NCBI GenBank assembly: GCA_012026685.1
Contig: VEOY01000117.1
Coordinates: 1 to 50,789 of the forward strand
Length of the DNA stretch: 50,789 nt
Direction of reading: 5' to 3'
DNA from: Nitrospirota bacterium
Lineage (GTDB): Bacteria > Nitrospirota > Thermodesulfovibrionia > Thermodesulfovibrionales > UBA6898
Part shown: positions 24,666 to 29,850 of the stretch, piece after piece
How the letters are laid out: every line of letters begins with the position of its first letter
Position numbering within the stretch: position 1 is the stretch's first letter
Made by a program: the position numbers and the translations under genes
Notes under the pieces: generated by a model
What the model saw: the letters and a program-made list of their open reading frames with translations, nothing else
Told to the model about the DNA's origin: nothing
The model's database searches: none

Positions 24666-25454
24666 ATGAAAAGGAAATGTTTTTTTTCTTTTTTTCTCGC
24701 GTTCCTGCTTTTTGGCTCATCACATGCCTTCGATATTGCCGGCCTCCAACCCCTCGCCCCTGACGGCGTTTTTTCAACGTTCAGCACCGAAAGCCTCCCT
24801 AAGAACAAGCTTTCCGCAGAAATTACGCTGGAACGGTCTCGAGAAGCAGATTTTTACAGGTCCACGGTCAAAGGAGCATACGGCATAAGCGATAATCTTG
24901 AGTTCATGATAGCTGTGCCATACGTGCTCCAGTTTGAGAACTCTGTTGACGGATTCGAGGATATTGCCATTGGATTCAAACACCGATTCTATGATGAGGG
25001 GAAATACGGCCCCTCGCTTGCATATGTGGTCACAGCGTCCATACCTGTCGGACGCGATGAATTCTCAACGGATGGCAGGGCAGGGATAGGACTTATCCTC
25101 AGCAAGAGGCTCGGCCCGTTTCAGGGGAGTTTCAATCTTTTCTATATGAAGCCCGGAAAGGGGGAACTTCAGGACGAAGTATCGTTTTCTTCGGGGATCG
25201 AATTTTCTGCAACCCACAATTCCGTGATCCTCGCAGAATTTCTCGCAAAGAAAAGCCACTTCACCAGCGAGTACGATCAACTGGAAACACGATTGGGATA
25301 TCGGTTGAGAACGACAGATTCGTTGTTCACGACCATCGGCGCCGGGGTCGATCTCAAGAACCGCAACCCTGAATACCGCCTGCTTCTGACAATTACCTTT
25401 ACAAATGCAAAACAGAAGAAGAAGATCAAAAAAATCTTTGAAGAAGAGGAATAA
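24666..25454 (+). CDS. Outer-membrane beta-barrel protein (MetA-pathway/transporter-like)
   Basis: This 262-residue protein has signal peptide MKRKCFFSFFLAFLLFGSSHA. Alternating hydrophobic/polar strands suggest a ~12-strand barrel (LSAEITLERSREADFYRSTV, LEFMIAVPYVLQF, IAIGFKHRFYD, LAYVVTASIPVG). It resembles proteins annotated as transporters of the 'MetA-pathway of phenol degradation' group, a name that says little about function. The end is unusually charged (KQKKKIKKIFEEEE) after a last strand LLLTITFTN, unlike a typical porin terminus. It sits directly before tatB and tatC. Function unknown. Confidence 0.65.
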   Translation: MKRKCFFSFFLAFLLFGSSHAFDIAGLQPLAPDGVFSTFSTESLPKNKLSAEITLERSREADFYRSTVKGAYGISDNLEFMIAVPYVLQFENSVDGFEDIAIGFKHRFYDEGKYGPSLAYVVTASIPVGRDEFSTDGRAGIGLILSKRLGPFQGSFNLFYMKPGKGELQDEVSFSSGIEFSATHNSVILAEFLAKKSHFTSEYDQLETRLGYRLRTTDSLFTTIGAGVDLKNRNPEYRLLLTITFTNAKQKKKIKKIFEEEE

Positions 25455-25724: not shown

Positions 25725-26495
25725 TTGGAAGACTCGCGCATGCCTCTGACAGATCATCTTTCCGAACTTCGCAAGCGAATATTCATTTCCCTGGGCTCGG
25801 TCGGAATACTTTTTTTGGTCTGTTTCAATTATTCAGAACAGCTTTTCGCTATTCTTATCTTTCCGCTGAGAGCGGAGGTCAGGGTGGTATTCACCAGCCC
25901 ATTTTTCCAGATCACGGAGAAACCTGCCGCCTCCCTGGTATTTCTTGCTCCGGCCGAGGCATTCTGGATGCACCTGAAGGTCGCATTCATCGCGTCCCTG
26001 GTCGTTTCGCTTCCCGTCATATTCGCGCAGTTCTGGAAATTTATCGCGCCCGGATTGATGCCCAAGGAGAAAAAATATTTTTTGCCTTTTCTTTTTTCGG
26101 CAACGTTGTTGTTCACTGTTGGAGCCGCATTCTGTTTCATCATCGTTCTCCCGTTTGCCATGACATTTCTTCTGGGATATAAAACAGGGCACCTGACACC
26201 CATGCTCTCGGTGGGAAGTTATGTGGATTTCTGCCTGAAATTCATACTCGCCTTCGGAGCGATCTTCGAGTTGCCGCTGATCATCATTTTTCTGACGCGT
26301 TTCGGGATCGTCACACCATCCACACTCGCGCGCCACAGAAAATACGCCGTCCTTGTTGCGTTTATTCTTGCTGCCGCCCTTACGCCGACGCCCGATGCAT
26401 TTAATCAGATCCTCATGGCGATACCCATCATCGTCCTCTACGAGATCGGAATCCTCTTTTCACGGATCATGCGTCCGAAAGAGTACCATGGGTAA
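25725..26495 (+). CDS. tatC: Sec-independent translocase subunit TatC
   Basis: This ~256-residue six-helix membrane protein of the Tat system has N-terminal MPLTDHLSELRKRIF, the signature LTDHLSELR-type contact site. FAQFWKFIAPGLMPKEKKY and the acidic AFGAIFELPLIIIFLTR with a conserved Glu follow. TTG 25725 is favoured because AAGGAA lies just upstream and it adds the usual short N-terminus; ATG 25740 is the alternative. It overlaps the next small gene by eight bases. Confidence 0.95.
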   Translation: MEDSRMPLTDHLSELRKRIFISLGSVGILFLVCFNYSEQLFAILIFPLRAEVRVVFTSPFFQITEKPAASLVFLAPAEAFWMHLKVAFIASLVVSLPVIFAQFWKFIAPGLMPKEKKYFLPFLFSATLLFTVGAAFCFIIVLPFAMTFLLGYKTGHLTPMLSVGSYVDFCLKFILAFGAIFELPLIIIFLTRFGIVTPSTLARHRKYAVLVAFILAAALTPTPDAFNQILMAIPIIVLYEIGILFSRIMRPKEYHG

Positions 26496-26766
26496 TGTCA
26501 GGGGGAAGAGCACCAAGGCTCTCACGGTAGATGTCGCTGAAGGATATGTGGCCGTCAATCCGCTCTTTCTTAAGTCCTTTGATCCTGATTCGCTCAAGGA
26601 CTTTTATCATCAGCTTGATAAAACACAGAAGGAGCTGCGCGCGGAAAGATTCCCTACAAATGACGCCCAGGCGATACGGATGCGCAACCTTAAATTGCAG
26701 AGACTGTATTCGGCCCAGATGATCATTCGAAACTTTGCACGCGAGCGCAGGGTGCCGCTCATTTAG
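26488..26766 (+). CDS. Small conserved-looking protein of unknown function, coupled to tatC
   Basis: This 92-residue, charged, predominantly helical protein (LKDFYHQLDKTQKELRAERF, MRNLKLQRLYSAQMIIRNFA) has no signal or membrane segment. ATG 26488 overlaps the tatC 3' end by eight bases, arguing for translational coupling. An upstream in-frame ATG at 26353 lies wholly within tatC and is unlikely. I do not recognise the family. Confidence 0.6.
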   Translation: MGNVRGKSTKALTVDVAEGYVAVNPLFLKSFDPDSLKDFYHQLDKTQKELRAERFPTNDAQAIRMRNLKLQRLYSAQMIIRNFARERRVPLI

Positions 26767-26807: not shown

Positions 26808-28457
26808 ATGGAAATCAATGAAGATCTGAAAGCCGCAAAGGAGATTGTTCAGTCCATCCTGAGAGCAAAGAAAATCATCAGGATGTATCCCGCGAACAAT
26901 CCTATTTATGTAAAGACCATCGAAGACTGCTTTGCGCGCTTCAGCGACTACTTCAATTACCGCGAAGATCTCGTCCTCAAGATCAGGCAGAATGAGATCA
27001 GTTGGGAGTCCGAGCAGGTATACGCGTCTGTTGAAAAGGAGGAGAACCTCGCTCTTTTCTTTTTCAAGGACGGTCTTCGGGAAGTGACATTCAAACGGGG
27101 GCTTTCCTCTGGAGAAATGGAAGACTTCCTGAAGATCATTGCGATGGATTTTGAACGGGATATCGTGGACGATGATATTGTAACGCTGCTCTGGGAACGT
27201 GATTTTCAGAACATACAATATATTGCTGACGATGCGATGCTGGCTGATGAAGACACCTATCAGGACCGCACCCTGGAAGAAATCGAGGAGCGCTCCAATG
27301 ATCCGGACAATATCATGAAGGCCTACCAGGATGCTTTTTCCGAACAGGATATCTCATCCGAGGCAAGCATCGCCCCGCTGAGCGACGCTGACCTTCAGCA
27401 GTTAATGCAGATGCTCGATCATGAGGGTAGCGGCAAGACGGAGAAACTTGTTGATTTGCTTTTTGAGCTCCCCTATCTTTCTGAAACACGGGCTGACTTC
27501 GAGGAGCTGACGGTTTTTTTTACAAGTGCTTCCGAATTTGTCATGCAAAGCGGCGATCTTGTGATAATGAACAGCATCCTCTCGCGTCTGAGCGGACTGA
27601 TCGGCGAGCCACATATCGATGATGAAATCAAGAAATATTTCAGGCGGGTCATATCGTACGCGGGCGGCAGCACCATCATCAAGCTTCTCGGGGAGATTCT
27701 TGACAGCGGTCAGGAAATCGAGGACAAAGTAGTAGAAGAATATGTCAGATATCTCGATAAGAGTGCCATACCTCCTCTCATGAATGTCCTTGGGGAACTG
27801 GAGAGCATTCATGCACGCAAGATTGTCATAGATGCGCTCATCTTCCTCGGTCCCAAGGATATAACGAGCCTTGCGAAGGGTCTTAATGACGCGCGCTGGT
27901 TTGTCGTAAGAAACATCATTTATATCTTCAGAAAGATAGCTGACAAGCGCGCGGTAGAATTTCTGCTGAAAACGGTTCGTCATACCGATATCAGAGTGAG
28001 AAAAGAAGTAATTCGCGCTCTCGGGGAACTGGGAGGAGGAGGAGTCTTCCAGACGCTGAGGGAGTGCCTGGAAGACCAGGAGCCGCAGATACGCTCCGCA
28101 GCGCTCAGGGCACTTGGCACGGTCGCATCTGAAGCTGCGAAAAGGATCATTTTGGACAAGATCAGCGACAAGGCATTCAAAGACGTCGATTTCGACGAAA
28201 AAAAAGAATACTTCGAGGTGTTGTCAAAATGGAAGGACAAGGATGTCTTTGCATTCCTTGTTGAGCTTCTCAAGAAGAAACCCTTCCTTTTCGGCAGCGC
28301 CAAGATGGAAGAAATTCGGGCATGTTCGGCGTATTCTCTCGGACTGCTCGGGAACAAGGATGCCATGCCGATTCTCACCAAATTCAAAGGAGACGCCAGC
28401 AAACTCGTAAGAGAATTTTCCTATACCGCGATCAAGAGGCTTGAGCATGGACAGTAA
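26808..28457 (+). CDS. HEAT-repeat protein with an N-terminal module shared with the next gene
   Basis: This 549-residue soluble protein has an N-terminal module (~1-118) that includes LVLKIRQNEISWE and VTFKRGLSSGEMEDFLKII and recurs in the HD-GYP protein downstream. A linker rich in Asp and Glu follows. Residues ~290-549 carry HEAT/PBS-type repeats (VEFLLKTVRHTDIRVRKEVI, ALGELGGGG, LEDQEPQIRSAALRALGT, and CSAYSLGLLGNKDAMPILTK). HEAT arrays usually scaffold protein contacts. The ATG at 26808 directly follows a promoter; TTG 26802 is in frame too. It overlaps the next gene by 11 bases, so the pair is co-expressed and likely functions together. Confidence 0.8.
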   Translation: MEINEDLKAAKEIVQSILRAKKIIRMYPANNPIYVKTIEDCFARFSDYFNYREDLVLKIRQNEISWESEQVYASVEKEENLALFFFKDGLREVTFKRGLSSGEMEDFLKIIAMDFERDIVDDDIVTLLWERDFQNIQYIADDAMLADEDTYQDRTLEEIEERSNDPDNIMKAYQDAFSEQDISSEASIAPLSDADLQQLMQMLDHEGSGKTEKLVDLLFELPYLSETRADFEELTVFFTSASEFVMQSGDLVIMNSILSRLSGLIGEPHIDDEIKKYFRRVISYAGGSTIIKLLGEILDSGQEIEDKVVEEYVRYLDKSAIPPLMNVLGELESIHARKIVIDALIFLGPKDITSLAKGLNDARWFVVRNIIYIFRKIADKRAVEFLLKTVRHTDIRVRKEVIRALGELGGGGVFQTLRECLEDQEPQIRSAALRALGTVASEAAKRIILDKISDKAFKDVDFDEKKEYFEVLSKWKDKDVFAFLVELLKKKPFLFGSAKMEEIRACSAYSLGLLGNKDAMPILTKFKGDASKLVREFSYTAIKRLEHGQ

Positions 28458-29850
28458 ACAGGAGCGCGAACTTCATAAAAATGCCAAGGAACTGATCAAC
28501 CAGATATCCGTTGTGCTTCGGACATCGCAAATCCATGACGCAAACAATGTCGCGCTGGCCTCGTCTATAAACCGGCTTGTAGCCATGATCAATGCCATGG
28601 TTTCACAGGAGAATATCCTTGTCCTTGAACTCAGGGGGGAATTCTTCTATATCAATGAGTACCGGATACGATATTCTCTTGAATATCTCCTGAACTTTGA
28701 TTTCATGGTCCGTGAGTTCAAGAAACGGGAACTCGGAAATGTCACGTTCAAGGGTCAGATCCGGGCAGATGATATTAAAGCATTTATCAAGGCGTTTAAT
28801 GATGCCTCGTTTTCGCAGGAACCCTTCAATACGATCCATGACGAAATGACCAATGTCCGGAACATTGATGTCGGTATTCTGAAAAAGGTTGTTGAAGACG
28901 ACGCCCTCGATGTGCGAAAGATGGTCAAAAAGACGTACTTCAATGCTGTTTCATTTACGCAGGGTGTCATCAACAAAATCAAATCCGGTGAAAAGGTAAA
29001 CATCAAGAAAGCCAAGAGAGTCGTCGAATCCATGGTCGATCAGATCCTCGAAGAAGAACAAATGCTCCTGGGCATGACCGCCATCAAAGATTATGATGAG
29101 TACACCTATCACCATTCGGTGAATGTCAGCATCCTTGCCATCGCCCTTGGCCAGAGACTCGGCATGAGCAGGCGCATGCTTACCGAACTTGGCATGGTGT
29201 CGCTCTTCCACGATATCGGCAAAATGGATATACCCAATGACATATTGAACAAACCCTCAAACTTTAATGATGACGAATGGAACATCATACGGAAGCATCC
29301 TGTGTGGGGTCTGAGGGCCATCCTGAAACTCAAGCGTTTTGACGACCTGACGATAAAATCAGCGATAGTCGCCTTTGAACATCATATGAACTTCGACCTG
29401 TCCGGCTATCCCAAGATAAGAAGAGGGATCAAGCTCGATTTGCTGAGCCGCATCGTGAGTCTGGCAGACCAGTATGATGCAATGACCTCAGCACGTGTTT
29501 ATTCGAGAATACCTCTTTCGCCCGATAAAGCATTAAGCATCATGATGGAAAGGGCTGGTACGCAGCTGGATCCTCTGCTGTTCAAGTTCTTCACCAATAT
29601 GGTCGGCGTCTATCCTATCGGCACCCTGGTAATGCTTGATTCGCGGGAACTCGGTCTTGTCTGCGAAAGCAATCAGCTTTTTCCGAATCGACCCCGGGTG
29701 ATGATCATTGTAAATGATGCAGGAACCCGAACCAAGGGGACTGTTATAGATCTCACGGAAAAAAATGATAAGGATCTGTATATCAGGTCCATCAGAAAGA
29801 CCCTTGACCCGAATAAATATAACATCAATCTTGCCGAATACCTTCTGTGA
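28447..29850 (+). CDS. HD-GYP domain protein (putative c-di-GMP phosphodiesterase)
   Basis: This 467-residue protein starts with the module it shares with the HEAT protein (~1-118), then a helical linker and an HD-GYP domain (~205-390). Metal and catalytic motifs are YHHSVNVSILA, FHDIGKMDIP (His255-Asp256), RKHPVWG, and FEHHMNFDLSGYP (GYP at 320-322), then ADQYDAMTS. These match the features of c-di-GMP-degrading enzymes, although the loop before GYP differs slightly from the common HHE+xDGxGYP form. ATG 28447 has AGAGG seven bases upstream. The C-terminal ~75 residues after the HD-GYP domain are beta-rich and unassigned. A GGDEF cyclase lies at 47.1 kb. Confidence 0.85.
   Translation: MDSKQERELHKNAKELINQISVVLRTSQIHDANNVALASSINRLVAMINAMVSQENILVLELRGEFFYINEYRIRYSLEYLLNFDFMVREFKKRELGNVTFKGQIRADDIKAFIKAFNDASFSQEPFNTIHDEMTNVRNIDVGILKKVVEDDALDVRKMVKKTYFNAVSFTQGVINKIKSGEKVNIKKAKRVVESMVDQILEEEQMLLGMTAIKDYDEYTYHHSVNVSILAIALGQRLGMSRRMLTELGMVSLFHDIGKMDIPNDILNKPSNFNDDEWNIIRKHPVWGLRAILKLKRFDDLTIKSAIVAFEHHMNFDLSGYPKIRRGIKLDLLSRIVSLADQYDAMTSARVYSRIPLSPDKALSIMMERAGTQLDPLLFKFFTNMVGVYPIGTLVMLDSRELGLVCESNQLFPNRPRVMIIVNDAGTRTKGTVIDLTEKNDKDLYIRSIRKTLDPNKYNINLAEYLL

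Follow-up and report, generated by a model that had tools for sequence, protein, structure and literature searches.

Contig VEOY01000117.1 of the Nitrospirota bacterium assembly GCA_012026685.1, of which positions 1 to 50,789 were analysed (the window, 50,789 nucleotides), carries two overlapping genes that encode a HEAT-repeat protein and an HD-GYP protein (Table 1). Most known HD-GYP proteins consist of one chain that has a REC, GAF or PAS input. In the window, the HEAT protein and the HD-GYP protein each begin with a copy of the same domain, and the gene pair recurs in many related genomes. The recognizable parts of both proteins score above the Pfam cut-offs (116.1 bits against 27.7 for HEAT_2, PF13646, in the HEAT protein and 76.3 bits against 27.2 for PF13487 in the HD-GYP protein). 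The overlap of the genes, reported in a first-pass annotation of this DNA, is real and amounts to 11 bases. The pair of the window is designated H1/D1 below, and H2/D2 and H3/D3 denote two further families of adjacent HEAT and HD-GYP genes in relatives.

Table 1. Features of the HEAT/HD-GYP locus and its upstream neighbours, in positions of the window (aa, amino acids; pLDDT, predicted local distance difference test)
Feature	Position	Strand	Basis and remarks
HEAT-repeat protein (H1)	26808-28457	+	ATG 26808, stop 28457; 549 aa; Pfam HEAT_2 PF13646, E 9e-34, 5 stretches
Shared N-terminal domain of the HEAT protein, residues 1-145	26808-27242	+	BLASTP and profile match; model mean pLDDT 85.2
HEAT-repeat part, about residues 300-549 (limits approximate)	27705-28454	+	Best Pfam stretch 354-437
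Overlap of the H1 and D1 genes, 11 bases	28447-28457	+	Sequence; HD-GYP ATG to HEAT TAA
Possible ribosome-binding site AAGAGG	28434-28439	+	Sequence
HD-GYP protein (D1, P0002)	28447-29850	+	ATG 28447, stop 29850; 467 aa; Pfam HD_5 PF13487, E 3.2e-21
Shared N-terminal domain of the HD-GYP protein, residues 1-148	28447-28890	+	BLASTP and profile match; mean pLDDT 83.5 over residues 1-178
HD-GYP catalytic domain, residues 212-376	29080-29574	+	HDIGK 255-259, GYP 320-322; Pfam, alignment
C-terminal part of D1, residues 385-467	29599-29847	+	D2 and D3 proteins shorter, their matches stop before this part
tatC	25740-26495	+	PF00902, E 7.7e-69; match in 60/80 family loci
Small frame, 92 aa, between tatC and the HEAT gene	26488-26766	+	No match in Pfam scan; match in 60/80 family loci

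The first 120 to 145 residues or so of the HEAT and HD-GYP proteins are homologous. In a direct BLASTP comparison, the N-termini of H1 and D1 align over 105 columns, of which 25% are identical (E 2e-4 as a single comparison), and the motifs from which the first-pass annotation had deduced a shared N-terminal module are present in both proteins and aligned with each other. A profile-profile comparison, which it had proposed as a check, bears the deduction out: the HEAT-side profile (alignment A4, 64 rows from 63 of the 71 eligible H1 loci and the window) matches the HD-GYP-side profile (alignment A3, 63 rows from 62 of the 71 eligible D1 loci and the window) over 116 columns with a probability of 92.9%, an E value of 3.8e-7 and a score of 48.5, compared with 14.6 for a reversed profile and at most 26.3 for 200 profiles with shuffled columns. 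The third pair type bridges the two sides, with probabilities of 95.8% for H1n-D3n, 95.9% for D1n-D3n and 98.5% (E 2e-15) for H3n-D3n. Weaker links are H1n-D1n in smaller alignments (72%, E 3.3e-5), H1n-D2n (44%), D1n-H2n (30%) and H2n-D2n (2.6%); the direct connection is weak for some families and becomes clear by way of others. The smaller-alignment comparison left out 28 of 70 HEAT frames, all shorter than 540 aa, one of which is the broken gene of L073 and the others of which were presumably cut by the 1,500-base flank of the D1 loci. The description of a common domain "split" between two proteins holds for the common domain but not for the splitting, as a whole copy is present in each protein.

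The AlphaFold2 models of the two N-terminal domains are confident (for the mean pLDDT values, see Table 1) and, compared without superposition, show the same order of elements, as the first reading leads one to expect: two long helices, a beta hairpin, a helix, a strand, two helices and a strand, with one additional short strand in the model of the HEAT side. In the models, the motif LVL(K/E)(I/L)R occupies the first strand, and VTFK the strand that follows the middle helix. The N-termini of the window proteins match no Pfam family, and their NCBIfam rows fall in the known parts of the proteins, below cut-off; when 39 members of the domain were compared with Pfam and NCBIfam at E 0.1, two or more members never hit the same family, and the best E value was 0.0046 in each library. 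Nor did these curated libraries provide a match of the domain to GAF or other known sensory families. Comparison with solved structures yielded no convincing row either with Foldseek (best E 0.1, to PelD with a probability of 0.21, and 0.5) or with VIA-align (best Z 4.5 and 5.1). Rows to ribosomal proteins, Wzc and FliS are at a level described as common in the tool's note, and five scattered rows from a profile search of PDB sequences, the best of them (E 5e-4) to the designed Octarellin over 42 positions, were taken as chance.

When genome contigs were scanned with the profile of the D1 N-terminus, 93 relatives were found, of which the best 80, with record titles that mostly name Nitrospirota, were kept. 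Pairing is testable in 77 of these loci (L107, L159 and L179 begin too near D1), and an H1 gene lies immediately upstream of D1 in 73 of them, so that the neighbourhood search advised by the first-pass annotation does recover a conserved pair. The 11-base overlap is the commonest among the 73 pair loci (35/73, with starts estimated from the alignment). In the wider set of 32 two-gene loci, the script places the HEAT gene ahead in 31; the domain of the remaining locus, L229, starts at residue 476 of an over-long frame, and therefore this pair, too, has the HEAT gene first. In the 26 fetched H2 and H3 loci, H2 always occurs together with D2 (10 loci) and H3 with D3 (16 loci). Decay of the pair is seen in G058 (L073, 217-2201, plus strand), where the HEAT frame ends early at 497 aa and D1 is reduced to stretches like residues 74-160 and 384-467, with the N-terminal part and the catalytic domain gone; both partners have therefore been damaged at one place. 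A general linkage of the pair to rplU-rpmA-obg, seen in the window, was rejected, as rplU follows D1 in just 4 of 68 testable loci. As a separate observation, the HEAT gene of L125 (3348-5008, plus strand, G011:C39) lies in two frames, through either decay or a sequencing error, beside an intact D1.

The occurrence of the domain by itself was followed in genome searches with alignment A2, which contains five of the six copies of the window's own genome as rows; the H1 and D1 copies, both already in A2, were found at E 2.5e-51 and 4.4e-36, respectively. At E up to 1, this genome has six copies, in three adjacent pairs (C205, C65 and C195), and its other two HD-GYP partners are of the D3 type (L207, 12177-13280, minus strand; L208, 2858-3943, plus strand). 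The domain is present at E 0.001 in 105 of 148 Nitrospirota genomes, and the copy number is even in 90 of these 105. In 28 hand-selected genomes, including 11 of the 15 Nitrospirota genomes with odd counts, 62 of 72 matches have a same-strand partner 1.2-2.7 kb away. The ten unpaired matches comprise three at or near contig ends (G086, G093:C30, G137:C67), two that adjoin an HD-GYP gene whose domain copy is absent or below threshold (G070, G078), a HEAT protein with an AAA domain (G098), a PAS-histidine kinase (G065:C118) and three more without a partner (G139, G083:C139, G099:C120). Among the other four odd genomes, G046 resembles a case of one D1 gene divided between contigs, a second D1 with no HEAT gene beside it is present in G039 and in G050, the latter also having a pair on C9, and G074 has a lone copy in a 788-aa frame.

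In a quick tree of 217 representatives of 331 domain copies, with many forks unresolved, the HEAT-side and HD-GYP-side copies form largely separate branches, and just four changes of side are needed among the 212 H and D rows. Given so few changes and the matching of H2 with D2 and H3 with D3, the division into HEAT and HD-GYP sides seems to be old, and copying has apparently involved whole pairs.

The domain extends to a second phylum, represented by 197 genomes around that of L178 (record title Desulfobacteraceae), which have no overlap with the Nitrospirota set among the genomes listed. Here, it occurs in 80 genomes (E 1e-4), 47 of them with an even count, and HEAT/HD-GYP pairs include L227, L228 and L234-L236. 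Across both sets, there are 522 domain matches in 185 genomes (311 + 211), with tandem copies counted twice. Besides the pairs, seven frames of 1,335-1,447 aa (L217-L222) carry two tandem copies ahead of HEAT repeats, and the one scanned against Pfam (L217, 53-4393) has GGDEF and AAA ATPase domains at its start; the same beginning is seen in L226, a shorter relative that has a single copy. Two tandem-copy genes lie close together in L217 (53-9176, minus strand). A protein of 1,680 aa in L224 (2014-7053, plus strand) combines the shared domain, a repeated middle, HEAT repeats and cyclic nucleotide monophosphate (cNMP)-binding and PilZ domains. Fusions of this kind in HEAT proteins, to GGDEF in one type and to cNMP-binding plus PilZ domains in the other, tie the domain more broadly to signalling by bis-(3'-5')-cyclic dimeric guanosine monophosphate (c-di-GMP). 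The domain also heads PAS-HisKA-HATPase kinases in Nitrospirota (L200, 1799-3733, minus strand) and in the second phylum (L231, 1287-3656, minus strand).

The catalytic domain of D1 was mapped on the HD-GYP protein PmGH. The seven metal ligands H223, H255, D256, H284, H312, H313 and D341 are invariant in 45 of 45 D1 rows; PMC4159591 gives the roles of these ligands and describes them as common to both HD-GYP subfamilies. The eighth PmGH ligand, E185, corresponds to Tyr in D1, giving Y219-T220-Y221, with the first two residues present in all 45 rows and the third being Y in 43 and F in 2. According to the same paper, a Y-T-Y cluster marks the Y/F subfamily, predicted to be binuclear, to which D1 therefore belongs. 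PmGH becomes inactive when D183 or K225 is lost (PMC4159591); their equivalents in D1, D217 and K259, are found in 45 of 45 D1 rows. Compared with the consensus HHExxDGxGYP, D1 reads HHMNFDLSGYP, with 6 of the 8 fixed letters and GYP retained; in the D1 rows, the G and Y of this last motif are present in 45/45 and the P in 44/45.

Co-variation of the partners was analysed by the mirror-tree approach in 53 of the 80 loci, as partial correlations given TatC distances. The highest of the ten values computed, 0.67, connects the HD-GYP N-terminal domain with the HEAT part of its partner; when half of the loci were sampled 400 times, it was above each of the remaining three values between the two proteins in 92-100% of the samples. 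The signal hints that the HD-GYP protein may dock through its copy of the domain on the solenoid of the HEAT partner.

Partners in one complex would be expected to show such a pattern of gene overlap, constant gene order, copying in pairs and a domain shared by both. Judged by their sequences, the two genes probably encode a co-translated two-protein c-di-GMP module, made up of an HD-GYP phosphodiesterase and a HEAT scaffold, and the earlier interpretation of the locus as a signalling pair with a shared domain is supported. The HD-GYP protein would act as the output: it would be a metal-dependent phosphodiesterase, of the Y/F subfamily by its Y-T-Y cluster, and would presumably lower c-di-GMP. 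The HEAT protein would serve as a non-enzymatic scaffold or adaptor, whose solenoid may hold a target or receptor. Each protein would contribute its own copy of the alpha/beta domain of about 145 residues, descended from one ancestor, and mutual recognition would most likely proceed through this domain. In such a complex, the HEAT protein could position or switch the phosphodiesterase, perhaps with the HD-GYP protein's N-terminal copy resting on the HEAT solenoid.

Several observations weigh against such a module. At E 0.001, 43 of the 148 Nitrospirota genomes are without the domain. Four second copies of D1 (L140, L149, L152, L157) lack a HEAT gene and stand among other genes, in neighbourhoods that are alike in all four; in three cases, a paired copy (L145, L139, L133) is present in the record series concerned as well. 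The count is odd in 33 of the 80 genomes of the second phylum, where many copies lie outside pairs, in the fusions and in lone N-HEAT frames (L230, L232, L233). Co-variation between the two N-terminal domains is not the strongest and was rejected as proof of contact (0.49, against 0.67 for the HEAT part and the HD-GYP N-terminal domain); moreover, the mirror-tree loci are related and their distances not independent, so that the whole analysis is a hint only. At the position of PmGH D183, Ser is found in 12 of 16 D3 proteins and Glu in 5 of 10 D2 proteins, and not all pairs therefore need be active enzymes. Finally, P0002 finds its top PDB match in a 3'3'-cyclic GMP-AMP (3'3'-cGAMP) phosphodiesterase (5z7c, E 4.3e-26), practically level with the c-di-GMP enzyme PmGH (4mcw, E 6.4e-26). 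A module that acts on another cyclic dinucleotide, such as 3'3'-cGAMP, or binds a nucleotide without catalysis would account for this top match, for the prevalence of Ser in D3 and for the deviation of D1 from the HHExxDGxGYP consensus; it is nevertheless improbable, as the seven metal ligands and the D183 and K225 equivalents are kept in every D1 row and the same domain is fused to GGDEF and PilZ.

If, instead, the shared domain were a sensory input, both proteins could read the same signal without touching each other, and the operon would serve to match their amounts. The domain heads two PAS-histidine kinases (L200 and L231), where an input domain would sit, and weak Foldseek rows lead to PelD, which contains a GAF domain, and to other GAF-type domains (E 0.1 and worse). 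These rows are far from significant, however, a HEAT solenoid would have no output of its own, so that a sensor mounted on it would need a partner, and the HEAT/HD-GYP order is held in 73 of 77 loci; on balance, this explanation is unlikely. That the N-termini resemble each other by chance or convergence is hardly credible: the low pairwise identity and the faint H1n-D1n (smaller alignments) and H2n-D2n links leave some room for it, but the 200 shuffled profiles peak far below the observed score, the bridging families match with high probability and the predicted elements follow one another in the same order, and chance similarity was rejected on the profile matches and the shuffling control.

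Beyond the module of phosphodiesterase and scaffold, a wider role can be put forward tentatively, in which the domain is an unrecognised connector of c-di-GMP networks that assembles parts making, breaking and reading c-di-GMP on HEAT scaffolds; two copies mostly occur together, one on a HEAT solenoid and the other on an HD-GYP protein, or both in a row in a GGDEF-ATPase-HEAT protein. If a phosphodiesterase is as a rule encoded beside a HEAT protein that has the same domain, it would offer a fixed partner for testing local c-di-GMP control, in Nitrospirota as well as in the second phylum, and naming the domain would annotate many proteins that Pfam describes just by their HEAT or HD parts. The first-pass annotation remarked that such a module had not been seen described; in keeping with this, no published description of the HEAT/HD-GYP pair or the shared domain was found in a search mainly of open-access literature, with few subscription journals and preprints. 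The publications found to mention HD-GYP together with HEAT repeats deal with Xanthomonas genomes and jumbo phages, and none concerns this pair, going by titles and the opening lines of abstracts.

Upstream of the pair lie tatC and a small frame that is possibly part of the HEAT/HD-GYP transcript. A 262-aa protein encoded further upstream (24666-25454) has a weak PF13557 match and a counterpart in 55 of the 80 family loci. At the other end of the pair, a Pfam scan of the C-terminal part of D1 gave nothing above cut-off.

The output and repeat domains of the pair are of known kinds; as far as the open-access literature searched goes, neither the domain at the two N-termini nor the recurring pair seems to have been described. 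H1 resembles the PBS-lyase type HEAT proteins (NblB, CpcE/CpcF) in its HEAT_2/HEAT_PBS repeats, but all seven NCBIfam scores are far below their cut-offs (46.9 against 300 for NblB), and it is the repeat part that matches. D1 shares the HD-GYP domain with Bd1817 of Bdellovibrio (PDB 3tm8; P0002 residues 192-367, E 6.2e-12), a protein reported as inactive, with non-consensus metal residues, in PMC3774798. Unlike Bd1817, D1 retains the metal residues, and the match stops short of the N-terminal part of Bd1817. In response regulators of the RpfG type, which have the REC-HD-GYP architecture, the same output domain also follows an N-terminal regulatory domain; they differ in that no receiver domain is found by Pfam in the window pair and that the second gene here encodes a HEAT protein, not a sensor kinase. 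PmGH of Persephonella marina (PDB 4mcw), with a GAF domain ahead of its HD-GYP domain, is like D1 in the HD-GYP domain, where the metal ligands are aligned (P0002 residues 212-384, E 6.4e-26), and unlike it in that D1 has an unnamed N-terminal domain and a HEAT partner. The two also differ in the metal site, which is a trinuclear site of the E/D-T-G type (E185) in PmGH (PMC4159591) and Y219-T-Y in D1.

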